Of a stretch of 64,000 nt of DNA, positions 7,557-63,700 are shown piece after piece. A program made the translations under genes and the position numbers. Each line of letters begins with the position of its first letter. Position 1 is the first letter of the stretch. Source of the DNA: Toxonevra muliebris (taxonomy: Eukaryota > Arthropoda > Insecta > Diptera > Pallopteridae); the NCBI GenBank assembly GCA_963691655.1, contig OY829328.1, positions 69,816,400 to 69,880,399 on the forward strand. Direction: 5' to 3'. The notes below the pieces were generated by a model, which was not told where the DNA came from, did no database searches, and saw only the letters and a program-made list of their open reading frames with translations.

Positions 7557-8817
7557 CTTTTGGGATTAATGCTAGAACAAAAATTGCAACTCTGTACCGG
7601 TAATGTCGATGACAATTGTAGACGAACTCTTTTTGTGTGCGACATTTTCATGTAATTCCTTGGACATTTGCGCCATCTGTATGTGAAATGTATAACTGTT
7701 ATAAACTTTAAGATGGCGACACTACACGTTGTTCTTTCTGCCATAGGCGTGTGTGTGTGTAATTAATATGTTATATTGAACTAAAACTATTTATGAATCG
7801 TTTATTATATAGTTTGCTTGTGAATTCAGTTACAGAATATTGATATTTAGCTCCTCATGCACACTGCTCGACAAAATTATGTCGCATTGCAAACTTACGT
7901 GCGACGTCACATCCGGTTGGTTTTACTCTAGGACAAGAGAAAAGAAGTTTCACTTCAAAAAGTTTTACAAATTAACATGTATATCAGTCGTTCATAGTTA
8001 TATTAAATTATAATTTTAATTTAACAAAGAAAAAACATAAATTTAAGTTGGAAAACATTTAAATTCGTAAATTTAAGATGGAAACATTTCAATTTAAAAA
8101 CAGCAGTAATTTTGTGGCTTAAATGGACATCCAAACGAAAATTTAAGTTAGAAAACATTGAATTTGGTAGAAATATTGAATTTGGCGGCCCACACTGCTA
8201 ACTTTTATTGCTAATAGGCTTTTCACTTCTGCGTCGCATTCTGAATAGTCCTCACTTGGCGCCCCACCTGAATCACATACTAAGAGACTACGCGAAGTAG
8301 ACTAAACTTCTGCTAAGTCTCGTCTAGTCTTGGGTTCTCTACGTTCCGAAGTCCCACTGCCATGCCATTTTCTGTAAGCAGATTTACTATTTTCTTTACT
8401 TCACTTCTTATTTTGATACTTCTATGACTTATTATAAATATAAACATAACTTTTTATTATTACACCCTTTTGCTTTTGTAAATTCATTTAAAGTAAAAAT
8501 TTTCACTGCGTCACTTTTTGTTTCACTTTTCTTTTATATTATTCAACATTGTTGCCAGATTAACATTTTTAAAACTCCAATATGTGCTGCCAGAATGTCA
8601 TAAATAATTTTTCAAGTGAACAGTTGAGAAAATGTTTATAAATTTATTATAGGTTAGAGCCATAAATATTTTCTCAAGTCTTTCACAACTCATACTCAAG
8701 TTGATAACAAACATTTGAGAAAAGGTTTAGTTTCAAATGATAAGCAATGTTGAAAATCAAATTGAGAACTAAGATTTTTTCATACGTTTGAGAATTTTGT
8801 TTCCAGTGTTTGTTGGG

Positions 8818-10984: not shown

Positions 10985-12190
10985 TTTGGCTCATAGCAAC
11001 GAAATCATTGACGACTTTGAATTTTTAAGTGTCAACAGTGACATTTTGTTAACACAAGGTATTTCGTTTTGTCCTCATTCACCACTAGACCCACTCGACG
11101 AGACTCCCTTTCTAAGTTTGAGAATGCTGCACATGACTTCTCGCGCGTTGGTGCCAATGATATCAATATCATTAGCGTATGCCAGCAGCATGACACTCTT
11201 GTAAAAGATAGTGCCAGAGATGCCGATGTTCGCAGCTCGAATTATATTCTCCAGCATTAGGTTAAAGAAGTCGCAAGAAACCGCTTTTGGTATCGAATGG
11301 CGTGGAGAGGTCAGTACCAATTTGCACTGCGCTGGTCGTGTCTGTCAGTGTTATTCTGCAAAGACGAATGAGCGAGACATTGCGGGGTACAGGTGATCTC
11401 TAATCGTGCTGTCGAAGGCGGCTTTATAATCGACGAATAGATGATGTGTGTCGATTTGTTTTTCTCGGGTCTTTTCGATGGTGGATTTACCAGGCATGAA
11501 GCTACACTGATAAGGTCCAATCAGTTAGTTGATGATGGGCTTCAGTCTTTTACACAGTATGCTCGATAGAACCTTAGAACCTTATAGGCGATGTTAAGAA
11601 GGCTTATCTCACGGTAGTTGACGCGGATCGTGGAATCACCTTTCTTGTGAATTGGGCTGAATACGCTGTGGTTCCAATCACTGGGCATGATTTAATCTGA
11701 CCATATTCTGCATAAAAGGTCGTGCATGCGTTTTGAGAACTCTTCGCCTCCAGTCTTAAACAACTCAGCAGGCAGGACATCTGCACCCGCAGCCTTATTG
11801 TTTTTCAGCCGTGCAATGCCTGTTAAGATCTCGTCATAGTCGGTAGGCGATACTTCAACGCTGTCAGTGATTGGGGTTTCCGGGACAGCTTCCCCAATGG
11901 CGGGATTGTTTGTCGTCATCACCATTAAGCAGCTGCGAGAAGTGTTTCCTCCATAACCTCATAATAACCTGGACATCTGCCATCAGATTTCCGTTTTCGT
12001 TCTTGCAGGAAGAAGCGTCGGTCTTCAAACCGTTAGTCAGGCGTCTTATTTTTTTGAAGAATTTTCGAACCTTATTCCTGTCTCCAAGCATCTCGATATC
12101 ATCGCACTTACGTCTTTCTGCCTCTCGTTTCTTACGCCTCAAAAGACGTTTCTCCTCCCTCCTCAACTCTTTGTATTGTTCCTCGAATTG
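10985..12190 (-). pseudogene. LINE (non-LTR retrotransposon) reverse-transcriptase relic
   Basis: Reading the minus strand from about 12190 down, broken frames give the order expected of a LINE ORF2: a basic linker (LRRKKREAERRK), GDRNKVRKFFKKIRRL, then the reverse-transcriptase block LKNNKAAGADVLPAELFKTG, MPSDWNHSVFSPIHKKGD, NYREISLLNIAYKVL, and finally FYKSVMLLAYANDIDIIG and VNEDKTKY. The polymerase active-site box that should read YADD reads YAND. At least three frame changes or stops separate the blocks. The 5' end, with any endonuclease domain, is missing, as is common for truncated LINE copies. The clade (RTE-like or another insect LINE group) is not settled. The element is dead. Confidence 0.85.
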
Positions 12191-12560
12191 AACTAAAAGG
12201 GAATCAATTACTTTCGAGGAATCATTCCAACTAAATTGGTATTTAATTCCAAGAAAGTAACAGATTACACTTAAATATTAAATACCTTTCTATTCAATTA
12301 CATTTTCAATTCCTTTAAGGAATTGATATATTTTTAATTACAAAATACAATTCCCTGTAATGGAATCGAAAATTTTTCCAATTACATTACCTAGGAATTT
12401 AAAAATTTTAATTACCGATTACTATTCCTATTAGTAATGGAATTGAAAGTTTTATCAATTCCATTACTAAGGAATTGAAAACATTAAAGTACCAATTACA
12501 ATTCCTTGTAATTAAAATTCAGATGGAATTTAGTTCCTAATCATTAGTACCCAACTCTGA
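12191..12560. repeat. AT-rich self-complementary repeat (GGAATT/AATTCC motifs)
   Basis: Short motifs such as AATTCC, TAATGGAAT and their complements recur irregularly, so the stretch can fold on itself in many ways. It directly abuts the LINE relic. Its right end CCCAACTCTG resembles the right end of the GACTAA-rich region near 4650, suggesting both are ends of related non-autonomous elements. No target duplication was found. Confidence 0.5.
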
Positions 12561-19120: not shown

Positions 19121-19312
19121 TAGGGTGAGTCACTATGTCTAGTATAATTGCACGATAGTACGAAATGCAAAAATATTATACTAAATTATATTACGATTCG
19201 AGAGCGCACATTAACGTAGAACTGATATATATAAGAAAATGTAAACACAGAGAGTGAGAGAGAAGCACAGAGTTGCATTTAATATACTACACTACATTGC
19301 ATTGAACATATA

Positions 19313-20584
19313 CAGGGTGACAATCGTAAAGTGACGCACACATTTCAGCAGTTATTTTCAAAAGGACGTACTTCCATTAAGTACAATTAAGTGTTAACAT
19401 TGCTGAATATATAAGCATTCATTTGAACCCCACCTCATTCAATATAACCTCCTTTAGCCTGCACACATGCCTTCAATCGATCCGGAAATCGTAGGACTGT
19501 TCGCCGCAGGACTTCCTGATCAATTTCAGTCCAGGCTTTCCCTAATGAATTTGTCAGCGACTCCAGACTGTGGTGTTGAGATGCACAAGCCTTACTCTCT
19601 AAAATACTCCAAATAGAGTAGTCTATTGGATTCAAGTCTGGGGAGTATGGTGGCCATTCTTGAGATGTTATGAATCGAGAAAAATTGTCTTTTATCCATG
19701 TTTGCGTTAATTTTGCCATGTGGGAAGGTGCAGAATCTTGTTGGAAGGTCCAGTTTTCATTTCCAGATTTATCTTGGGCCCAGGGAAGAACATGTTCATT
19801 TAAAATGCTCCGATAAACAACCTGGTCAATTTTAACACTCTCTTCAACGATTATTAAAGGGGTTCTGGCATTAGCGGAAACTCCAGCCCATACCATAACG
19901 GAACGGCCAACAGTGCTATTTTGTTGTGATGATGATGTTAGCCACATTCGGTAATTTTGCGCATTGAAATGTTGTTCAACCGTGAAAATTTTTTCATCTG
20001 TAAACAAGATATTTTCAACATTATTTAACACGGAGGAGCGTAGCAACGCCTTGCATCTTTGCAGTCGCAAATCTTTCTTTTTTTGTGTCAGATCTTGAGC
20101 TTTTCGGAGCTTGTACGGCTTAAGATTAAGCTTTGATTTTGCAATGATTCACACTGTTTCACGGTTTACTCCCACTTCCTTAGCGATTTTTCTCATTGAA
20201 CGCCTTGGACTTCGCTTGATTCGTTTACGAATTTTTTCTGTTAAACCAGTAGCGGCAACTGTTGAAAATTTTCCCCGGTCTCTATCTCCAAAACCCCCAG
20301 TTTCATTATATCGAATAATAGCTCGGTCTACCGTACGACTTGACAAATTTAAAGCCTTTGCAATTTGACGGCTACTATAATTTGCCAAATGAAATTTCAT
20401 AATTTCACGACGAATATTTTCCTTGTCCATTTTTATGGAAATTTCAAAATGTAATAACAAAAATTCAAATGAAATTAAAGCAAAGCCAATGATGAATGAA
20501 TTTGCTTTTTAAATTAAAATAACGGTAAATGGCAAAGCTTGCTGCAGAGTATTAAACTTGCGTCACTTTACAATTGTCACCCTG
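19313..20584 (-). mobile_element. maT-type (DD37D) mariner-like transposon, copy 1
   Basis: The element is 1272 bp with inverted ends starting CAGGGTGACAATCGTAAAGT (one mismatch in the first 20 bases between ends). It is flanked by TA on both sides (19311-19312 and 20585-20586). It carries one transposase gene on the minus strand. Compared with copy 2 at 33771-35062 it is 20 bp shorter, mainly from a 15-bp in-frame deletion. Confidence 0.93.
19435..20430 (-). pseudogene. maT transposase, disrupted by one nonsense codon (copy 1)
   Basis: The start is the ATG at 20430 (MDKENIRREIMK), shared with copy 2. The N-terminal part has a paired helix-turn-helix (YSSRQIAKALNLSSRTVDR, then RSMRKIAKEVGVNRETV). 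The catalytic motifs are ILFTDEKIF, QQDSAPSHMAK and PYSPDLNPIDYSIW. Exactly 37 residues lie between the second and third Asp, so this is DD37D, the maT group of Tc1/mariner. At 20149-20151 a CGA codon of copy 2 reads TGA, a C-to-T change at a CpG, which truncates the protein after 93 residues. Beyond it the same frame continues to the natural stop. Five residues (VQKPA in copy 2) are missing before SVMVW. Confidence 0.92.
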
Positions 20585-20695
20585 TACATGGACGTGTATT
20601 TTGTTTTTGTTTCGTTGTACGGATTGGAAAGTTTTACAATTTGTGCTATCGTGCTACCGTGCAAGGGCATATACTAGACTTAGAGAATCACCCTA

Positions 20696-21689: not shown

Positions 21690-23253
21690 GAATTTGTGGG
21701 ACTTGGGAACATGGAGAACCCAGAACTAGACGAGACTTGGCTGATATTTCTTCTACTTCGTGTAGTCTCCTAGTATGTGATTCAGGTGGGGCGCCAAGTG
21801 AGGACTATTCAGAATCCAACGCAGAAGTGAAATCGTATTGGCAAGTGAAGCAAGAAAAGTTGGCAGTGTGGGCCGTCAAAATCAAGATTTCCATTAAATT
21901 CAATGTTTTCCAACTTTAATTTACGTTTGCGGGTCCATTTAAGCCACAAAATGACTGCTATTTTTAAATATAAATGTTTCCAACTTAAATTTACGAATTG
22001 AAATGTTTTCCAACTTAAATTTAAGTTTTTTCTTTGTTAAATTAAAATTATAATTTAATATAACTATGCACGACTTATATGTAATATATGTGAATTTGTA
22101 AAACTATTTTTTTACTTGAATTTTACTTAATACATATACAAATTAAGAAATAAAAATTATTTTGTTATCGCGATTCTGTATTTTAAAATTTGTTTGGCAT
22201 CGCTGGCAACGCTATATCTTCCTATGAAAGCAATTGGATTCCGTTCCGTTCCTGTTTGAGATAAAGTTAAGAATTTGACATTTTCCAATTTGAGAATTAA
22301 GAAAAACTAGTCGGTAAGGCCTCAGTAACTGGGGCTAGTTTTTTGCGGAAGAAATCTCTTTATGAGAAACAGATATCCAAAGAGAACCAAACTACTCATT
22401 GGTGTTTGTTTTGTTATTTGTGTATGCAGATAATTCGTTAGATAATTCTGAGAAATGCCGTTACTCATGTCTTCTCTCCCTCTCTCATTTGTTATTTACT
22501 CCCGCTTAAGCTATGATTTTTTTAACGATGAATGCAATGCTTTGTTCAATGAACGAATTTTAAAAAACTTCCGACGCTAATATTTTGGAATTGGCTTAAC
22601 CAATTTTAAATCTGATAATTTTTGGCTAGCCTACTCGAGCTCTTTAAATTGATATATAATATGATATCGTAGCACCTCTGGATCTTCTGGAATAAAATTG
22701 TAGATACAGTAATAAATGTATAGATTTTTACTAATAACTGGTTAACCGTTGGAGATATCAAAAAAAGTAATCACTACAAAAAAAAAAGCTTGACTGATTT
22801 CCTAAAAAAAAGGTATTGGTTAATTTTTTCGTATATGTCAAAGTTTTTGAGATATCTCATACAAACTTGGAGTCTGACTGACGGGCCCCGTTCTAACGAA
22901 AATCTGACTGACTCCCGGAATAATGTTTTTATTAAATACATAACCTGTATATAAAGTTTCAGCCTTTAGAAAACCGTTGCACTTACCTCGTATTTTTGAT
23001 ATGGTTGAAAGCTCACCTGTGCCCCTGTTCTAATCAAAACCTGACTAACCAGAGTATGTTCATGTATTTCACTAGTATAAGAACATATTAAAAAACTAGC
23101 CTTTAGAAAGTCAGAGACTTTTTTTGTCACGGGCTCTTGGGCTACTATCAACGGTTAGTTTAGGTGCATTTAAGAACTAACGTTTGAGATTTGAGAAAAG
23201 GATTAGTTTTCAAATACACCTCAAGTTGAGATTAAACAAAAATATTTGTTGGG
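21690..23253 (-). mobile_element. Composite dispersed repeat A, copy 2 (truncated, interrupted)
   Basis: This is an inverted copy of 6715-8350. The matching end TTGTTGGG lies at 23253, while the other end is truncated near 21690. It lacks the hAT MITE and the hairpin insertion of copy 1 and shows the empty hAT target at 23165-23172. It has its own insertion from about 22307 to 23143 that includes repeat B. Confidence 0.65.
22307..22750 (+). mobile_element. Dispersed repeat B, copy 1
   Basis: The segment starting CTAGTCGGTAAGGCC and running to about 22750 recurs, inverted, inside the nischarin intron at about 60915-61325. Long shared stretches include AACTGGGGC, TGAGAAATGCCGTTACTCATG and CCGACGCTAATATTTTGGAA. 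Copy 1 has about 27 extra bases near 22600. It lies within the insertion that interrupts repeat A copy 2. No coding frame is present and the ends are not fully resolved. Confidence 0.75.
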
Positions 23254-33758: not shown

Positions 33759-33770
33759 ACTAGTGATATA

Positions 33771-35062
33771 CAGAGTGACAATTGTAAAGTGACGCAAGTT
33801 TAATACTCTGCAGCAAGCTTTGCCATTTACCGTTACTTTAATTTAAAAAGCAAATTCATTCATCATTGGCTTTGATTTTAATTTCATTTGAATTTTTGTT
33901 ATTACATTTTGAAATTTCCATAAAAATGGACAAGGAAAATATTCGTCGTGAAATTATGAAATTTCATTTGGCAAATTATAGTAGCCGTCAAATTGCAAAG
34001 GCTTTAAATTTGTCAAGTCGTACGGTAGACCGAGCTATTATTCGATATAATGAAACTGGGGGTTTTGGAGATAGAGACCGGGGAAAATTTTCAACAGTTG
34101 CCACTACTGGTTTAACAGAAAAAATTCGTAAACGAATCAAGCGAAATCCAAGGCGCTCAATGAGAAAAATCGCTAAGGAAGTGGGAGTAAACCGTGAAAC
34201 AGTGCGAATCATTGCAAAATCAAAGCTTAATCTTAAGCCGTACAAGCTCCGAAAAGCTCAAGATCTGACACAAAAAAAGAAAGATTTGCGACTGCAAAGA
34301 TGCAAGGCGTTGCTACGCTCCTCCGTGTTAAAAAATGTTGAAAATATATTGTTTACAGATGAAAAAATTTTCACGGTTGAACAACATTTCAATGCGCAAA
34401 ATGACCGAATGTGGCTAACATCATCATCGCAACAAAATAGGACTGTTGGCCGAGTTCAAAAGCCAGCTTCCGTTATGGTATGGGCTGGAGTTTCCGCTAA
34501 CGCCAGAACCCCTCTAATATTCGTTGAAGAAATTCGTTGTTAAAATTGACCAGGTTGTTTATCGGAGCATTTTAAATGAACATGTTCTTCCCTGGGCCCA
34601 AGATACATTTGGAAATGGAAACTGGACTTTCCAGCAAGATTCTGCACCTTCCCACATGGCAAAATTAACGCAAACATGGATAAAAGACAATTTTTCTGGA
34701 TTCATAACATCTCAAGAATGGGCACCATACTCCCCAGACTTGAATCCAATGGACTACTCTATTTGGAGTATTTTAGAGAGTAAGGCTTGTGCATCTCAAC
34801 ACCACAGTCTGGAGTCGCTGACAAATTCATTAGAGAAAGCCTGGACTGAAATTGATCAGGAAGTCCTGCGGCGAACAGTCCTACGATTTCCGGATCGATT
34901 GAAGGCATGTGTGCAGGCTAAAGGAGGTTATATTGAATGAGGCGGGGTTCAAATGAATGCTTATATATTCAGCAATGTTAACACTTAATTGTACTTAATG
35001 GAAGTACGTCCTTTTGAAAATAACTGCTGAAATGTGTGCGTCACTTTACGATTGTCACCCTG
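33771..35062 (+). mobile_element. maT-type (DD37D) mariner-like transposon, copy 2
   Basis: The element is 1292 bp. Its inverted ends start CAGAGTGACAATTGTAAAGT on the left and read ACTTTACGATTGTCACCCTG on the right, and TA flanks both (33769-33770 and 35063-35064). It is the same family as 19313-20584 in the opposite orientation and highly similar throughout, suggesting recent common origin. Confidence 0.93.
33926..34940 (+). pseudogene. maT transposase, disrupted by one frameshift (copy 2)
   Basis: The frame opens at ATG 33926 and runs through both helix-turn-helix motifs, ILFTDEKIF and the SVMVWAGVSANARTPL block. A small length change (about 4 bases more than copy 1) near 34530 then throws it into a stop at 34541-34543. 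The correct frame resumes immediately (ORF from 34524) with QQDSAPSHMAK and PYSPDLNPMDYSIW to the stop at 34938. All three catalytic Asp codons survive. Copies 1 and 2 are broken at different places, so neither encodes a full transposase. Confidence 0.92.
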
Positions 35063-36798
35063 TACACCATAAGATTTTTATGGAATTCAGATCGGGGTTA
35101 AATGCAAGTCGATCAAGAATTGGAACTCTTTAGTTTTCTTGTAACAATGTATTACTGAGTTATTCTGAAGAAAAATTAATTTCTGGGGTGAAAATTTCTT
35201 CTCCAAATCAGCATTTCAGAATCCGAAGCGAAGCAAATGGGATTGGGTCCCTTTAAAAAAAAAATTGGAAAATTTTCCCTACATATTTCTCGGAAACTAT
35301 GAGAGCCACAAACATTTTTTAGCCGAATTGAATTTCAGCGTAGAAAAATACAAAATTAGGAAACCACTTCCATATCTCAAATTTTACAGATTTTTGTTCT
35401 CATGCCGTCGGCTCCAAAGGATATACAGGATATTCAGTATTTATTGAAGCCAAGCCAATTGCCATTTTCTACTTTCCTTGTATTGCACAGAAGCCATTTG
35501 GTGTCTAAATTTCTGAGCAGCATGAGCACACAAGCAAACTTCAGACTAAATTAATGAACGGTCATTGCCGAGGTAGGACGTTTGGGAATTAAACCCTTAT
35601 ACTGTGTTCATTGCTGGCCAATTTAAATTAAAAATATTCATTCTGAAATACGCCCACGGTAAAACGTGCTGCAATATGACATGACACTATGCTGCCAATT
35701 AAAATATTTACAACTTCCTCACTGACAGCATTGGCGTACATGATTTCCATTTTTTTTTTTTTTAATATTGTTTAATATTAGTGGTGCATAGAATATCCCC
35801 AAAAAATACCCGTAAAATAAAATTCTCTGTAATTTCTATAACTTCTACAGAGACTGTCCATTGTCAATGGGATCTCCCAGTGTTCTAATTGAATCAGCCA
35901 ATCGCTAATTGTCGTGTGGTTTTGTTCGTTTTCACAAACATTTATTCTCCAAAGTATGCAATGTTTTTTTTTTTTAGTTGTTATGTAATTGGTAGTGTAT
36001 GTTATATAACTGGTGTGAGATGGTCAAGGTATGTGTACGTTAACTGAATCTATGAATTTTCGCAACAAAAAAAAAGAAAAACAATTGCGTTAGCCACCGT
36101 TATTCTATTGTTACACTGTGCTACGTATATTTATAAATAATAGAATACATGCTTCACTATTTATCAACGTCACTTCCGGAGTCAAGTTAGTCGTCTGCTT
36201 TCATTTATCTATTTTACTTGCTGTGTGTGTGTGTGTGGCCATGCACATCTATATACATAATCCTTAAATCGCAACAAAAATTTACAGGCTCCGCCCAATT
36301 TCAGATTTTCTCCAATATACATAGATATATATATATGTATGTATGTATGTATGTACATACATTACTTATATAATTTACACTTTTATATGATTTATGTTCA
36401 CAACCAATTATGTAATGGTTTGCTATAAAAAGTGGGCGTGTCATTAAGCATCATTTGTGTGCAGCGTATAAATAAGTCGATGTAGTACAACTGAAACATT
36501 TCCTTTTTATTGTTGTTGATTTTTGTACGCATGGAAATATGTTTTCATTTGCAATACTCGTCGAATAATTTTGCCTATATTTACAATACTAAAAATAAAT
36601 TACAAAAAAAAAAAAAAAAAATTAAAAATGTAAATTATTTATTACTGGTCGCAAACCGCTGGCATGCAACACCGCTCACACCCCACCCCACTGCTTTTTC
36701 GCATCAAGTATATTTTTATTATTACTTCGCATAGTAAAACACCCTTCTGTTTCTGCCCCTTTTTAATTTATATAAAAGAAATTAAATATTCGATTTAC
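35063..36798. other. Non-coding; probably start of the intron of the minus-strand zinc-finger gene
   Basis: No exon was recognised on either strand. A TATG microsatellite occupies 36326-36362 and a TG repeat about 36220-36238. The sequence directly left of 36799 should be intron 1 of the gene at 36799-37521. Confidence 0.5.
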
Positions 36799-44971: not shown

Positions 44972-45752
44972 TTATTCGCTCATGTATTTCTGTCGATAAT
45001 TGTACAGCTTTCGTATCCATTTTTCTGTTTTTAGTTCTGCATCACCAAGGAACTGCAAAAATAGAAATATAAAATAAAATTGTTTTGAATAAAATCTATT
45101 AGTTTTTATTATTAATTCTACTCACATTCTGATGAAATATTTGTTGTTTAACATCCTCTGGCTCTTTAGATTGGTCAAGTGGCTTTGGCACGGTAACAGT
45201 CACTGAATCTAAGTCGATTATTACTTTGTCAGATGAAATTACTGGTTTCTTTTCTGGTGCTTCACGATCTCTTGTACTGTAGAATGTTTTTGGTACAAAT
45301 GTATCTTCTTCTATGATTTCCAATTCTTTTTGCACTTTAGTGTCTAGTACATCAATGCTTTTGGGTGTTTGTGTAATAGTAGCAGCAGTACTAATAGCTG
45401 TTTGAGAATTACTTTCTGAACTGGCGGCACGTTTTCTGGTTGCTGTTGTTGTTGATGATGATGTTAAGTTTGTAGATGTCCGTGAATGTGACTTAGATTT
45501 CCTTGAAGAATTGCGGCTCTCTTGTGAGCTATAAGATGTTGTTGACGAGGATGAGCTTGTGCTACGTCGACGCCGCGAATATTTTTTTGAGCTTTTGGAT
45601 TTTTTAGACTTTCTAGACCTACTGCGGGATGGTGTAGGCGACCTAGAAGATTTGGAGCGATGGTGTCTCCGCGAATAATAATCGCGATCACGATCTCGTT
45701 CGCGGTCTCGATCTCTGTGTGATGAAACTCTCCTACTTTCGGATTCCCTCAT
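44972..45752 (-). CDS. Arginine/serine-rich (RS-domain) protein, two exons
   Basis: Exon 1 runs from ATG 45752 to 45126 (209 codons) and exon 2 from 45052 to the TAA at 44972-44974 (26 codons). The 73-bp intron has GTGAGT at the donor and TTTTTGCAG at the acceptor, and the join is in phase 0, giving 235 residues. The N-terminal third is an RS domain: RDRDRERDRDRD, then SRSPTPSRSRSRKSKK and a Ser-rich run. The middle is Ser/Thr-rich, and the C-terminal third is acidic and probably the conserved part (ELEIIEEDTFVPKTFYSTRD, later FLGDAELKTEKWIRKLYNYR). RS domains are typical of nuclear pre-mRNA splicing or transcription factors; no RNA-recognition motif is present. I do not recognise the exact ortholog. 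The foldback element starts only about 170 bp upstream of the start codon. Confidence 0.85.
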
Positions 45753-46185
45753 TTTCGAAGTTTGTAATACGCGAGTACTATAAAGATAATTCTTATGAGT
45801 GCCTTGGAATTAGTGCACACTTTCAACCTTTGTTAGTTCTTTGGCGAATTAAGAAATTATAACACCTCAAAGCATTGGGAAATAAACAATAATCTGACAA
45901 ATACCAAATGACACTTGACTTAAAACTAGCGTGAAGTTAGCAACGACGCTAAATATCAGCTATCCAAAACACAGGGTGACTCAGATGACAAGAAAATAAT
46001 AAATAAAATATTTCTTTGTGCACAAAAACTAATTAAAAACCCTTAAATTCAATAAATTATTAAATATTTATACGATTTTATGTATGTTTTCTCACGTAAA
46101 CATTACCTTTTCCACTAAAAGGTTGAAAAAGCTATGATTAAGTAACGATTCATACAAGTTCTATCTGAAAATTAAAATGGATCCA

Positions 46186-47200
46186 GCTACAAGGACAAGC
46201 AACGAAATGAAATTTTTTTGATGTGGATAGTTGCACCCATATAGCATCTTCCTAGTGCTGTACCGCTAGATTTAATCCCAGCTTTATTTCAAAAGTTATG
46301 CACCAGCAACGATTCTGTCCACTACTGGACGAAAATTTAATTGGCTCTAGCTACAAGGAATATCACCGTGCTGGAATTTTTTTTAATGAGGATAGTTGTA
46401 CCCTTATAGCATCTTCCTATTGGTGTAACACTAGATTTAATCCCAGCAACAATTGAAGAGTTATGCACCAGCAACGATTTTGTCCAGTACTGGAAGAACA
46501 TTTAATTCGCTCTAGCTACAAGGAATATAACCGTGCTGGAATTTTTTTTAATGAGGATAGTTGTACCCTTATACCATCTTCCTAGTGGAGTAACGCTAGA
46601 TTTAATCCCAGCTTTATTTCAAAAGTTATGCACCAGCAACGATTCTGTCCACTACTGGAAGAACATTTAATTGGCTCTAGCAACAAGGAATATAACAGTG
46701 CTGGAATTTTTTTTAATGAGGATAGTTGTGCCCTTATAGCATCTTCCCAGTGGAGTAACGCTAGATTTAATCCCAGCTTTATTTCAAAAGTTATGCACCA
46801 GCAACGATTCTGTCCACTACTGGACGAACATTTAATTGGCTCTAGCAACAAGGAATATCACCGTGCTGGAACTTTTTTTTAATGAGGATAGTTGTACACT
46901 TATAGCATCTTCCTATTGGTGTAACACTAGATTTAATCCCAGCAACAATTGAAGAGTTATGCACCAGCAACGATTTTGTCCAGTACTGGAAGAACATTTA
47001 ATTCGCTCTAGCTACAAGGAATATAACCGTGCTGGAATTTTTTTTAATGAGGATAGTTGTACACTTATAGCATCTTCCTAGTGGAGTAACACTAGATTTA
47101 ATCCCAGCTTTATTTCAAAAGTTATGCACCAGCAACGATTTTGTCCAGTACTGGAAGAACATTTAATTCGCTCTAGCTACAAGGAATATAACCGTGCTGG
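46186..47200. repeat. Foldback left-arm tandem array (about 6 monomers)
   Basis: The monomer marker TATGCACCAGCAACGAT recurs every 165-166 bp near 46297, 46462, 46627, 46793, 46960 and 47125. Two monomer types differ just before the marker: one reads TTTATTTCAAAAGT, the other ACAATTGAAGAGT. Because 165 is divisible by three, spurious reading frames run across several monomers. Confidence 0.92.
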
Positions 47201-47355
47201 AAAGGAAAGGAAAGTTTTAGAGCGCCCCTAGTTATTAGCTCACTGCTTACGTATGCCAGGTCCTTTAAACAATTTAATTCGCTACATAGAGTAGGCAATT
47301 TATCCTTGTATTAAAGAAACTATTTCATGCTGTCGTACAACGAATTCAAACGTGT

Positions 47356-50300
47356 CGTGATATTCCTTGTTGCTAGAGCCAATTAAATGTTCTTCCAGTA
47401 CTGGACAAAATCGTTGCTGGTGCATAACTCTTCAATTGTTGCTGGGATCAAATCTAGCATTACTCCACTAGGAAGATGCTATAAGGGTACAACTATCCTC
47501 ATTAAAAAAAATTCCAGCACGGTTATATTCCTTGTTGCTAGAGCGAATTAAATGTTCGTCCAGTAGTGGACAGAATCGTTGCTGGTGCATAACTTTTGAA
47601 ATAAAGATGGGATTAAATCTAGCGTTACTCCACTAGGAAGATGCTATAAGTGTACAACTATCCTCATTAAAAAAAATTCCAGCACGGTTATATTCCTTGT
47701 AGCTAGAGCGAATTAAATGTTCTTCCAGTACTGGACAAAATCGTTGATGGTGCATAACTCTTCAATTGTTGCTGGGATTAAATCTAGCATTACTCCACTA
47801 GGAAGATGCTATAAGGGTACAACTATCCTCATTAAAAAAAATTCCAGCACGGTTATATTCCTTGTTGCTAGAGCGAATTAAATGTTCGTCCAGTAGTGGA
47901 CAGAATCGTTGCTGGTGCATAACTTTTGAAATAAAGCTGGGATTAAATCTAGCGTTACTCCACTAGGAAGATGCTATAAGTGTACAACTATCCTCATTAA
48001 AAAAAATTCCAGCACGGTTATATTCCTTGTAGCTAGAGCGAATTAAATGTTCTTCCAGTACTGGACAAAATCGTTGCTGGTGCATAACTCTTCAATTGTT
48101 GCTGGGATTAAATCTAGCATTACTCCACTAGGAAGATGCTATAAGGGTACAACTATCCTCATTAAAAAAAATTCCAGCACGGTGATATTCCTTGTAGCTA
48201 GAGCCAATTAAATGTTCTTCCAGTAGTGGACAGAATCGTTGCTGGTGCATAACTTTTGAAATAAAGCTGGGATTAAATCTAGCGTTACTCCACTAGGAAG
48301 ATGGTATAAGGGTACAACTATCCTCATTAAAAAAAATTCCAGCACGGTTATATTCCTTGTAGCTAGAGCGAATTAAATGTTCTTCCAGTACTGGTCAAAA
48401 TCGTTGCTGGTGCATAACTCTTCAATTGTTGCTGGGATTAAATCTAGCATTACTCCACTAGGAAGATGCTATAAGGGTACAACTATCCTCATTAAAAAAA
48501 ATTCCAGCACGGTTATATTCCTTGTAGCTAGAGCCAGTTGAATTTTCTTCCAGTACTGGACAGAATAGTTGCTGGTGCATAACTTTTGAAATAAAGCTGG
48601 GATTAAATCTAGCGTTACTCCACTAGGAAGATGCTATAAGTGTACAACTATCCTCATTAAAAAAAATTCCAGCACGGTTATATTCCTTGTAGCTAGAGCG
48701 AATTAAATGTTCTTCCAGTACTGGACAAAATCGTTGATGGTGCATAACTCTTCAATTGTTGCTGGGATTAAATCTAGCATTACTCCACTAGGAAGATGCT
48801 ATAAGGGTACAACTATCCTCATTAAAAAAAATTCCAGCACGGTTATATTCCTTGTAGCTAGAGCCAGTTGAATTTTCTTCCAGTACTGGACAGAATAGTT
48901 GCTGGTGCATAACTTTTGAAATAAAGCTGGGATTAAATCTAGCGTTACTCCACTGGGAAGATGCTATAAGGGCACAACTATCCTCATTAAAAAAAATTCC
49001 AGCACGGTGATATTCCTTGTTGCTAGAGCGAATTAAATGTTCTTCCAGTAGTGGACAGAATCGTTGCTGGTGCATAACTTTTGAAATAAAGCTGGGATTA
49101 AATCTAGCGTTACTCCACTGGGAAGATGCTATAAGGGTACAACTATCCTCATTAAAAAAAATCCAGCACGGTGATATTCCTTGTAGCTAGAGCCAATTAA
49201 ATGTTCTTCCAGTAGTGGACAGAATCGTTGCTGGTGCATAACTTTTGAAATAAAGCTGGGATTAAATCTAGCGTTACTCCACTAGGAAGATGGTATAAGG
49301 GTACAACTATCCTCATTAAAAAAAATTCCAGCACGGTTATATTCCTTGTAGCTAGAGCGAATTAAATGTTCTTCCAGTACTGGTCAAAATCGTTGCTGGT
49401 GCATAACTCTTCAATTGTTGCTGGGATTAAATCTAGCATTACTCCACTAGGAAGATGCTATAAGGGTACAACTATCCTCATTAAAAAAAATTCCAGCACG
49501 GTTATATTCCTTGTTGCTAGAGCCAATTAAATGTTCGTCCAGTAGTGGACAGAATCGTTACTGGTGCATAACTTTTGAAATAAAGCTGGGATTAAATCTA
49601 GCGTTACTCCACTGGGAAGATGCTATAAGGGTACAACTATCCTCATTAAAAAAAATCCAGCACGGTGATATTCCTTGTAGCTAGAGCCAATTAAATGTTC
49701 TTCCAGTAGTGGACAGAATCGTTGCTGGTGCATAACTTTTGAAATAAAGCTGGGATTAAATCTAGCGTTACTCCACTAGGAAGATGGTATAAGGGTACAA
49801 CTATCCTCATTAAAAAAAATTCCAGCACGGTGATATTCCTTGTAGCTAGAGCCAGTTGAATTTTCTTCCAGTACTGGACAGAATAGTTGCTGGTGCATAA
49901 CTTTTGAAATAAAGCTGGGATTAAATCTAGCGTTACTCCACTAGGAAGATGGTATAAGGTTACAACTATCCTCATTAAAAAAAATTCCAGCACGGTGATA
50001 TTCCTTGTTGCTAGAGCGAATTAAATGTTCTTCCAGTAGTGGACAGAATCGTTGCTGGTGCATAACTTTTGAAATAAAGCTGGGATTAAATCTAGCGTTA
50101 CTCCACTAGGAAGATGCTATAAGTGTACAACTATCCTCATTAAAAAAAATTCCAGCACTGTTATATTCCATGTAGCTAGAGCCAATTAAATGTTCTTCCA
50201 TTACTGGACAAAATCGTTGCTGGTGCATAACTCTTCAATTGTTGCTGGGATTAAATCTAGTGTTACACCAATAGGAAGATGCTATAAGGGTACAACTATC

Positions 50301-50505
50301 CTCATTAAAAAAAATTCCAGCACGGTGATATTCCTTGTAGCTAGAGCCAATTAAATTTTCGTCCAGTAGTGGACAGAATCGTTGCTGGTGCATAACTTTT
50401 GAAATAAAGCTGGGATTAAATCTAGCGTTACTCCACTAGGAAGATGCTATATGGGTGCAACTATCCACATCAAAAAAATTTCATTTCGTTGCTTGTCCTT
50501 GTAGC
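47356..50505. repeat. Foldback right-arm tandem array (about 19 monomers)
   Basis: The same monomer appears in inverted orientation; the marker TGGTGCATAACT occurs about 19 times at spacings of 163-168 bp. The two monomer types (TCTTCAATTGTTGCTGGG and TTTGAAATAAAGCTGGG) alternate over much of the left part of the array, giving a higher-order unit of about 330 bp, and then the second type predominates between about 48900 and 50060. Long blocks are repeated almost exactly (for example 49140-49330 and 49630-49820), indicating recent unequal exchange. Confidence 0.92.
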
Positions 50506-50775
50506 TGGATCCATTTTAATTTTCAGATAGAACTTGTATGAATCGTTACTTAATCATAGCTTTTTCAACCTTTTAGTGGAAAAGGTAATGTTTACGTGAG
50601 AAAACATACATAAAATCGTATAAATATTTAATAATTTATTGAATTTAAGGGTTTTTAATTAGTTTTTGTGCACAAAGAAATATTTTATTTATTATTTTCT
50701 TGTCATCTGAGTCACCCTGTGTTTTGGACAGCTGATATTTAGCGTCGTTGCTAACTTCACGCTAGTTGACTTAAA

Positions 50776-60715: not shown

Positions 60716-63700
60716 CTATCTTCGCTGCTGCTCTTGACTAAGCTGGCGCATTTTTGATTTCTGTAAAGCTGATAACACCAAAGCTGTGTCCAATTCCTTT
60801 TGTGTACCCCGTTCGCTGTCCAGTGATATTTCTGCAGCTCTTTCATGAAATCGTGCTAAAACACGAGGACGATAATCTAGATTATCCAAAAGAAATATGA
60901 TTTTTAAATATACTGTAATCCACTTTATCTCAGTTTACGTCATCTATACAATTATTAGTGTAACTACATTTTTATTCCAGAAGATTCACCATCAAATTAT
61001 ATTTCAATTTAAAGAGCTTGACGAGTAGGTTAAGCCAATTCCAAAATATTAGCGTCGGAAGTTCTTTAAAATTCACTCATTGAACAAAGCATTGCATTCA
61101 TCGTTGTAAAAATCATTGCTTAAGCGGGAGTAAATAACAAATGAGAGAGGGAGAGAAGACATGAGTAACGGCATTTCTCAGAATTATCTAACGAATTATC
61201 TGCATACACAAATAGCAAAACAAACACCAACGAGTAGTTTGGTTCTCTTTTGATTTTTGTTTTTTCATAATGAGATTTCTGGAGCAAAAAAATAGCCCCA
61301 GTTACTGGGGCCTTACCGACTAGTGTTCATTATAGTGCATTATAGCAGAGTTTATTTGGCCTATTTAAAAATGGTTTCTTATAATTGAATGGCGATTAAG
61401 CGACTGGCTGCGGCAAAGCCACAAATTATTTGTTAAGTGCGCGAAAAAGGCACACAAATTTTCAGCTCGCCTAAAATTCATAAATCAACTTTAACCGAAT
61501 AATCTAATCTAAAATTTAAAATACAGATTTTGTTATTTTTTTGTAATCTAACGTTTTTGATCCTGTTAGCTTAAAAAAAAAATGTTCTCTTTCGAAACAA
61601 AGTTCTATTGCAGTTTGCATTAATTTGGGGTATTCACAGTTTCGAGTTATCTGGTGTGATATCCCAAGCATTTTTGAGCCTACGGTATTGACCACGAAGA
61701 AAGAATAAGAATGAGTTGATGAGATGATAACTTCACCGGGTATAAATTCATTTGGTTAGTTAGAGATTTAAGTGCAACTCACCGACACTGCCAGCCAATG
61801 GATTGCCTGTCAAGCGCAGCGTCTCCAAAATCGGTAAACCAGCAACATTATCCACTTCTTCCAAGTCCTCAATTTGATTACAACTTAAATCCAAATTGAC
61901 TAAAGATAAAAGTTTACGCAATCCCGACAATATCTTTAACTTATTTTGTGCCAAATTCAATGTTACTAAATTGCCCAATTCCAAATGCCAATCGATGCAA
62001 TCTGTTATCAAATTCACCGACAACGATAACACCTGCAAATGTGACAATTCTGCAAGATTTTGTATATTACGTATACGATTCTGTTCGAGTATAAGTTTGC
62101 TCAGAAGCGGCGCAGTACGTACACTAGAATCGATTTGTGTGAGCAAATTTCCAGCTAAATCCAATTGAGTAACGTTGGACCAAGCTGAGCGTGGATTTGT
62201 ATCTACAATGCTGCTACTGTTGTACATAGATGTGGACAGTGAAGAAGAATTCTGCGATGTACTCGCTGTGTTGGTCGAATCTGTTGCTGCTACAACAGCT
62301 GGCACTAACTCACTTAAATCTTTGTGCACATTATCGCACATAAGCACTTGACTAATGTGTGTAATTGTGGTACTGTGTACACAAATTGTTGTGAGCGTTG
62401 GTTTTAATAATGCAATATCGACAATATTTTCCGTTGAGAGACCATAGAATTTTAATGTTTTTAAATTACGGAATGCATTTAAAGTAAATTTGAGATTTTT
62501 TGGAATGATATTACTGCGTCCGATCGGCACATCTACGGTATTATAATCGTTGCTAAATGAGGAATTGTCCTAATCGAAAATTAATAATGGTTAGTAAAAT
62601 AACTTATTTCAGTAGGTATTGCTTTCAAGGAAAGATGAGAAGGTACGCTTACTTTTACTGGCGTCACAATTAGCACTTCAAGTTGAGTGCAAAAATCTAA
62701 AACATGTGAAAAATCAAACTTTCCTCGTTGTTCAATGTTCTCAGGCGGACATGGAAGGCACAAGCGTTCACTGATAGCGTAGACCTGAAAACCCATAATG
62801 TGTTGTTAAATAAATTTCAAGTACTTAGGTAGGCAGAATAGATATTGATAAATTGATTACATTTAAACATATTGTGTCACATTCGATTGCACTTCGTTAT
62901 AAGTTTACTACTAGATATGCTTTCCTACGAAATCAGGTTTGTACTCTATTAGGACTGCTACAAGGTTGAGTTTGGTGCAGTTTGCGTTATCCCACGTAAT
63001 GGGTTTTACTAATATATATATAGCAGTTTATCTCATTTTCTGGCGTCTTTTGAGCACCCTTTTTTGATGACGCCATTTATGTAATGCTGTTGGCTGTCTT
63101 TCTCAAAGTATCACCTTCTATCTACCTTCATTTTTATTTTCTTAACTGTTTTTATATTACAATGTTACAAAGATCATAATTTCTAATCGTTTTGTTTTTG
63201 AAAACAAGTTTGGTTTTTTGCCTGCCATAGTTTCGTTGTGGCCCCGGCGTTGATTATAAATGGCTTGTGGAATTTACCACCATGCAGAGCTACAAATTCT
63301 TTTCATTATCCTGCTGATTTGAATAAACTTATAAGTTTCTTATGAGTGGAAATATTTATAATTACCTCTAAAGCAGAAAAATTGTATTCTTTTTTTGAGC
63401 TGAGCAATGCATCACCGTTTTCATTGAATAATTTTGCCAAATCTTGCAGCAAATAAATAATGTCATATTTATTAAAATCTAAAAACTCAGCCAAAACGCG
63501 TGGCAGCTGAATGCGAAAGAACACAAGCAGCTCTTGCAAATATTTTTCTAATTGAACGCGACGTTGTTCCAGAAATGCAGGGTTTTTGTTCCCAACGAGC
63601 TATGGGTTTAAAAGAGAAACATTTTATGGTTAATAATTGCAAGTAATAGGTTCCTACAATAATACAATAATACGTTTGGGTAAATAACCTTTTTGGGTGG

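Follow-up and report, generated by a model that had tools for sequence, protein, structure and literature searches.

A foldback transposon in the fly Toxonevra muliebris belongs to a dispersed family whose long copy encodes a candidate Ulp1-bearing transposase

A stretch of 64,000 bp from the fly Toxonevra muliebris (the window, C3:69816400-69880399 in a host genome that was searched as 491 Mb in 96 contigs) carries, at positions 45925..50766, a 4,842-bp element with long inverted arms made of tandem units. This foldback structure, to which an earlier note made from the letters of the window had drawn attention, is real, and the element belongs to a real family of foldback-type transposons. 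In particular, it is very probably an internally deleted, non-autonomous member of an FB-like cut-and-paste family whose long relative encodes a fusion of a DDE-type transposase with an Ulp1-like protease.

The element begins with ACTAGCG and ends with CGCTAGT, and 10 further two-ended copies in the genome have identical or almost identical termini. It is flanked on both sides by the 9-bp sequence TGACTTAAA (45916..45924 and 50767..50775); the perfect target-site duplication described in the earlier note is thus borne out, while the span 45916-50775 given there holds for the element plus both duplications and not for the element proper. The longest direct repeat at this locus alone is 11 bp, TTGACTTAAAA, and the length of the duplication is set at 9 bp by the other copies and not by the window locus alone; random pairs of 9-mers from the window agree by chance in 13 of 200,000 draws. 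From the outside inward, each arm is composed of a non-tandem flanking domain of 202 bp (45925..46126 on the plus strand and 50565..50766 on the minus strand), then a divergent edge monomer, and then the monomers of about 165 bp. The left edge monomer (46127..46293, plus strand, start approximate) reaches a local alignment score of 134 versus at most 30 in 500 shuffles, and its counterpart on the right lies at 50398..50564 (minus strand, outer limit approximate). Monomer length ranges from 164 to 166 bp over both arms. The left arm (46294..47202, plus strand) holds 5 full monomers of 165-166 bp and a partial one of about 84 bp, and the right arm (47357..50397, minus strand) holds 18 full monomers of 164-165 bp and a 73-bp partial one, with A/B dimers in part of it; the Tandem Repeats Finder (TRF) counts of 6.0 and 18.9 copies agree with the original estimate of about 6 versus about 19. 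The loop between the arms (47203..47356) is present as proposed, with its length corrected from 155 to 154 bp. In parallel, the inverted ends differ by 1 mismatch in 333 bp, 4 in 565 bp and 25 in 955 bp, so that their near-identity stands and the 261 bp first ascribed to it proves too short, similarity reaching to 955 bp. Mismatches between the arms are sparse up to 46489 and denser past it (4/565 versus 21/390, Fisher p 1e-5), and the breakpoint statistic at this position was reached by 1 of 2,000 permutations.

No coding capacity is seen in the window element: its longest frame, of 132 codons, runs across monomers, has too little word overlap with the proteins searched and matches no Pfam model. 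One monomer frame used as a protein query returned no candidate, a 21-base monomer pattern had no exact match in collections of genome contigs or viral contigs, and a 24-base pattern of the end had none in viral contigs. Two profile matches on monomer frames were set aside as chance: Cys_rich_CWC (31.5 bits, cut-off 24), the frames being repetitive and non-coding, and PilY2 (16.1 bits, below its cut-off of 25).

A genome search with the end of the element, as the earlier note had proposed, uncovered a dispersed family in the host. Indeed, the 275-bp end has at least 41 matches genome-wide, including the two ends in the window and older partial copies, and a pair of monomers has at least 202, with older arrays of 74-81% identity elsewhere; both counts are lower bounds. 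Among 20 stretches taken from the genome, 10 two-ended copies were found, which with the window makes 11. This count leaves out L020, with two left ends and no right terminus within 6 mismatches, and the single-terminus stretches L023-L028, while the single-terminus stretch at C2:48.19 Mb was examined further. The 11 copies range in size from 0.8 to 27.4 kb and vary in the length of their middles and arms. Eight of them have a perfect 9-bp duplication just outside the termini, and 9 bp is also the longest symmetric match in all seven of these besides the window. An A precedes and a T follows the terminal CTAG position in 11 of 11 copies, one left end reading TTAG. Long inverted repeats with tandem units, a variable middle and variable arms, and dispersed copies with fixed termini and duplications are therefore found together, which supports the FB-type reading of the earlier note.

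The loop of the window element points to a larger ancestor. Its first 8 bp are extra, and its last 146 bp match without mismatch the margin of the middle region in the 27.4-kb copy, on the side of the long arm. A 2.5-kb copy on C2 has the identical full loop, and C3:63.844 Mb has 145 identical bp of it, followed by an assembly gap; the window, the C2 copy and C3:63.844 Mb have the same junction with the 8 extra bases. The simplest account is a single internal deletion whose product was mobilised later, the window copy being a non-autonomous deletion derivative of a larger element. The C2 copy has 6 monomer matches versus 20 in the window, hence array length has changed between sister copies. 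At C3:63.844 Mb, the gap adjoining the loop of the sibling copy is a run of 200 N (about 6248-6447 of L023), and such elements seem to break assembly. A hAT origin of the loop was considered only from a by-eye resemblance of a neighbouring frame, on which Pfam gave 12.2 bits with a cut-off of 21.4.

The 27.4-kb copy lies at C1:29.536-29.563 Mb and has a middle of 11.9 kb, arms with 68 monomer matches (to position 11,328) and 24 monomer matches, two identical 201-bp ends and the target duplication TTTGACAAC. Its middle contains an uninterrupted frame of 975 codons, the product of which is, on sequence grounds, a candidate for the transposase of the family. Residues 730-905 of this protein match Peptidase_C48 (Ulp1) in Pfam with 33.0 bits (cut-off 20.7). 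A YopJ-family match in the C-terminal part (23.3 bits with a cut-off of 24.4, and 27.4 bits, above that cut-off, on a cut segment) is read as cysteine-protease kinship, because C48 scores higher in the same region. The 975-residue protein matched 23 places in the genome: the open copy itself, two open paralogues, fragments, and parts of a frameshifted copy on C2. No relative was confirmed in viral contigs. The paralogues are distant, both 32% identical to the 975-residue protein, and have 1,008 codons (L047:1240-4263, with a C48 match of 24.4 bits) and 1,090 codons (L048:871-4140); no inverted repeats were found around either frame in the 0.5-1.2 kb of flank on each side. Residues D280, D354, C399, H402, E569 (in SNGPVE), H821, D838, Q875 and C881 are invariant in the three open proteins, as are several C-terminal cysteines. 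By eye, we take the first five to be a DDE triad with C-x2-H, and the last four to be the H-D-Q-C set of the protease. In the transposases of Mutator-like elements (MULEs), a C/D-x2-H motif separates the second D from the E of the DDE triad. The two close copies of the frame differ by 18 synonymous and 29 non-synonymous changes in 964 codons (dN/dS 0.37, Fisher p 0.002), the second having 2 stops within these codons as well as several frame-shifting gaps. Of the frame, an 18.5-kb copy at C1:2.22-2.24 Mb has only residues 1-116 left, although much of its middle is shared. Nested in this copy, at L016:2848-8140, is a retrotransposon without long terminal repeats (non-LTR) that has reverse transcriptase (RT), endonuclease and RNase H.

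Several results weigh against the assignment of the window element to a family moved by such a fusion protein. No Pfam transposase model scores above its cut-off on the DDE part, and the 1,090-codon paralogue has no C48 match. The frame is open in a single full-length copy and broken by frameshifts and stops in the near-copy, and the first methionine of the open frame comes at about residue 53, so that upstream exons are likely needed. No motif shared between tip and monomers is significant against shuffles (p 0.19 and 0.59), and binding of the monomers by the transposase is thus unsupported; a 16-bp match between loop and monomer (p 0.002) was one of 12 tests, and nothing is built on it. Three of the 11 copies (5.6 kb on C3, 1.7 kb on C1 and 0.8 kb on C4) have no 9-bp duplication, for which ectopic recombination or decay might be responsible. 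Over the left 1.45 kb, the window and the 2.5-kb C2 copy differ at 47 positions, with 2 gap columns, in 1,451, hence either they did not separate very recently or exchange has affected their arrays. In addition, a profile search of the genome gave no PF10551 match in the foldback copies and matches at 11 other genomic places, some of them in open frames.

These last matches suggest a different source of mobility, in which a PF10551 (Phantom/MULE) transposase encoded elsewhere in the genome would move the element and the Ulp1-bearing protein would be a passenger. A precedent is the nematode element Tm1, in which a Phantom-type transposase lies within FB-like ends with mostly 9-bp duplications (PMC3169594; this and the other papers are cited for parts of their text). 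However, the terminus CTAGCGT occurs in 0 of the 10 PF10551 loci examined (of 11; about 3.2 kb each), while the frame with the Ulp1 domain is enclosed by the same termini as the window element, shows constraint and has DDE-like invariant residues, so that the passenger scenario is unlikely. Much the same arms could be seen as the source of a long hairpin RNA that silences related elements or neighbouring genes, as about 0.95 kb of them pair at 97% and the element lies between two divergently oriented reading frames; transposition nevertheless accounts for the duplications, the dispersal and the termini, and a hairpin role is very improbable as an explanation of the locus. Even less credit can be given to a Galileo-like foldback of the P superfamily moved by a THAP transposase. 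Galileo has long terminal inverted repeats (TIRs), tandem units of about 210 bp in one subfamily and unequal numbers of them in the two arms (PMC3573991), and a 7-bp duplication could be read from the symmetric ends of the window copy alone. However, Galileo copies are bounded by 7-bp sequences, following the rule of the P superfamily (PMC3573991), whereas 9 bp are found here in seven other copies, and the long frame of the family has Ulp1 and C-x2-H features and no THAP match; a Galileo-like origin is largely refuted by the 9-bp duplications. Finally, an assembly artefact or a chance inverted satellite is most improbable. Tandem arrays are hard to assemble and two sibling loci have 200-N gaps, but the window contains 0 N bases and 10 further two-ended copies end in identical or almost identical sequences, which reduces the artefact worry raised by the earlier note and leaves the exact array lengths exposed to it.

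The organization of the arrays gives some indication of how the arms of the foldback family grow. Two types of monomer, A and B, are distinguished by their last 20 bases and alternate in the inner part of the right arm. Divergence between right-arm monomers is 0.044-0.045 at lags 2, 4 and 6 versus 0.070-0.077 at lags 1, 3, 5 and 7, a contrast that fades from lag 8, and the same arm contains exact direct repeats of 353 bp (period about 6 monomers), 271 bp (about 3), 258 bp (about 6) and 217 bp (about 2). Dimer order and long exact blocks together form a pattern of block duplication, as by unequal exchange. In the 27.4-kb copy, mean monomer divergence is lower within the copy than to others (0.053 versus 0.064), and local amplification thus occurs there. 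In the window copy the two values are equal (0.063 within and 0.063 to other copies), so the diversity of monomers is older than the window insertion. Among 221 monomers, a fraction of 0.645 have their nearest neighbour in the same element, versus a mean of 0.217 in 200 shuffles, an excess due to the block copies.

The earlier note had attributed the similarity of the two ends to recent activity or to homogenisation. Within a copy, 0-7 mismatches separate the two 201-bp ends in nine of ten copies, and 20 do so in the 0.8-kb C4 copy (the 1.2-kb C3 copy was excluded because of N), and the median number of mismatches to the ends of other copies is 3-7 for 17 of 20 ends. The window's own ends show 1 mismatch in 201 bp, versus 0-1 to the nearest ends elsewhere. 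They are therefore no closer to each other than to other copies, and their near-identity reflects the youth of the family, no conversion being needed. Recent activity is supported by the recurrence of the loop junction at other loci, by the uninterrupted long frame and by the middles of two copies at C1:83.541-83.546 Mb and C3:889.7-895.4 kb, which are identical over 1,182 of 1,182 aligned bp out of 1,183. Homogenisation at the window locus is dispensable, as the ends of the window copy are no closer, and its monomers on average no less divergent, within the copy than to other copies. The two identical middles are in opposite orientation, and ectopic recombination is possible for the C3 copy, which is without duplication.

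From these data a mechanism can be proposed. Between its two arrays of 165-bp monomers, the long relative would encode a fusion of DDE-type transposase, Ulp1-like protease and cysteine-rich tail. Bound to the ends and perhaps also to the monomers, the transposase would cleave at ACTAGCG and integrate the element at target cuts staggered by 9 bp. Once most of the middle had been lost, the 154-bp loop would have remained, and the short element would then have been mobilised in trans. The copy number of the arms would shift via block duplication, through unequal exchange or template switching during repair. A broader and more speculative proposal, doubtful in our view, is that the family forms a distinct type of autonomous foldback system, with an Ulp1-bearing transposase between arms that reach about 11 kb of dimer-ordered 165-bp units. 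If so, array growth would be tied to the transposition cycle, and these elements would act as active sources of satellite DNA within gene-rich regions. In this one genome, elements with the same termini include short ones, one derived by a deletion whose junction can be traced, and one in which a transposase-like frame is open. The family thus makes testable which enzyme moves a foldback element, how tandem units build up in its ends and by what mode the arrays grow.

The element has inserted between two frames. On the left, its edge lies 172 bp upstream of a Ser/Arg-rich (SR-rich) frame that starts with an ATG at 45752 (minus strand) and has no Pfam match; on the right, its edge lies about 850 bp upstream of an ATG at about 51621 on the plus strand. 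The right-hand frame has 100 relatives, three of them with a POGZ-like name, and frames further downstream have zinc-finger matches, of which the POGZ-like one is below its cut-off; all of these frames probably belong to the same gene. For the neighbouring mL41, the best named among the 120 of 242 matches listed are from Teleopsis (72%), Bactrocera (72%) and Drosophila novamexicana (71%). The gene thus puts the host within the schizophoran flies, and a tree gave no finer placement. Other repeats of the window include two inverted Tc1/mariner-type copies (19311-20589 and 33766-35064; 96.4% identical over about 1.3 kb), both with DDE_3 and helix-turn-helix (HTH) matches and a frame split in two, dispersed repeat pairs at 22306-22601 and 61028-61324 (94% identical) and at 7957-8357 and 21696-22110 (86% identical), and a tandem repeat of a 77-bp unit in 1.9 copies at 12357-12506.

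Among known systems, the structure and the duplications agree with FB-type elements and come closest to Tetris. Drosophila FB elements have 9-bp duplications and short copies beside copies with a coding middle, as here, while their units are much shorter than 165 bp. In Drosophila melanogaster, FB4 likewise has repetitive ends with frequent rearrangement (PMC8277862). Tetris of Drosophila virilis shares with the window element a flanking domain, tandem units, a variable middle, duplications of 8-10 bp, array length that varies among alleles and, in the part of the paper cited, the lack of coding capacity (PMC4079207). It differs in its units of about 220 bp versus 165 bp, in TIRs of up to 1,735 bp versus about 11.3 kb in the longer arm of the 27.4-kb copy, and in that its authors report, in that part, having found no autonomous partner versus the open transposase-like frame described here (PMC4079207). 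Tm1 of Meloidogyne also has FB-like composite ends, mostly 9-bp duplications, and non-autonomous copies together with one coding copy, while it has an end motif of about 14 bp and a FLYWCH and PF10551 transposase that is described without Ulp1 (PMC3169594). Galileo resembles the family in its long, internally repetitive ends with unequal tandem numbers, and departs from it in its 7-bp duplications and THAP transposase of the P superfamily (PMC3573991, PMC3688188). Muta1 of Aedes aegypti, a MULE, has tandem units in its ends and 8-9-bp duplications, unlike the present family in its 12-bp units, 145-bp TIR and 504-residue transposase (PMC5225508). The 9-bp duplications of 8 of the 11 copies fall within the 8-10 bp given for the Mutator superfamily (PMC5225508), while the PF10551 model of typical MULEs has no match in the foldback copies, and the family is thus not filed as a PF10551 MULE. 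In a survey of MULEs, TIRs measure 14-500 bp, and the part cited makes no mention of NOF, foldback or Ulp1 (PMC6446971). MULE-NOF occurs as a term in the literature. In parts of a paper on grapevine transposons, Ulp1 and MULE transposase both occur (PMC2528002), and an Ulp1 domain beside a MULE transposase may thus already be known in plants. Collectively, these comparisons make the window element a new member of the foldback class, the transposase of which probably bears an Ulp1 domain in this family.

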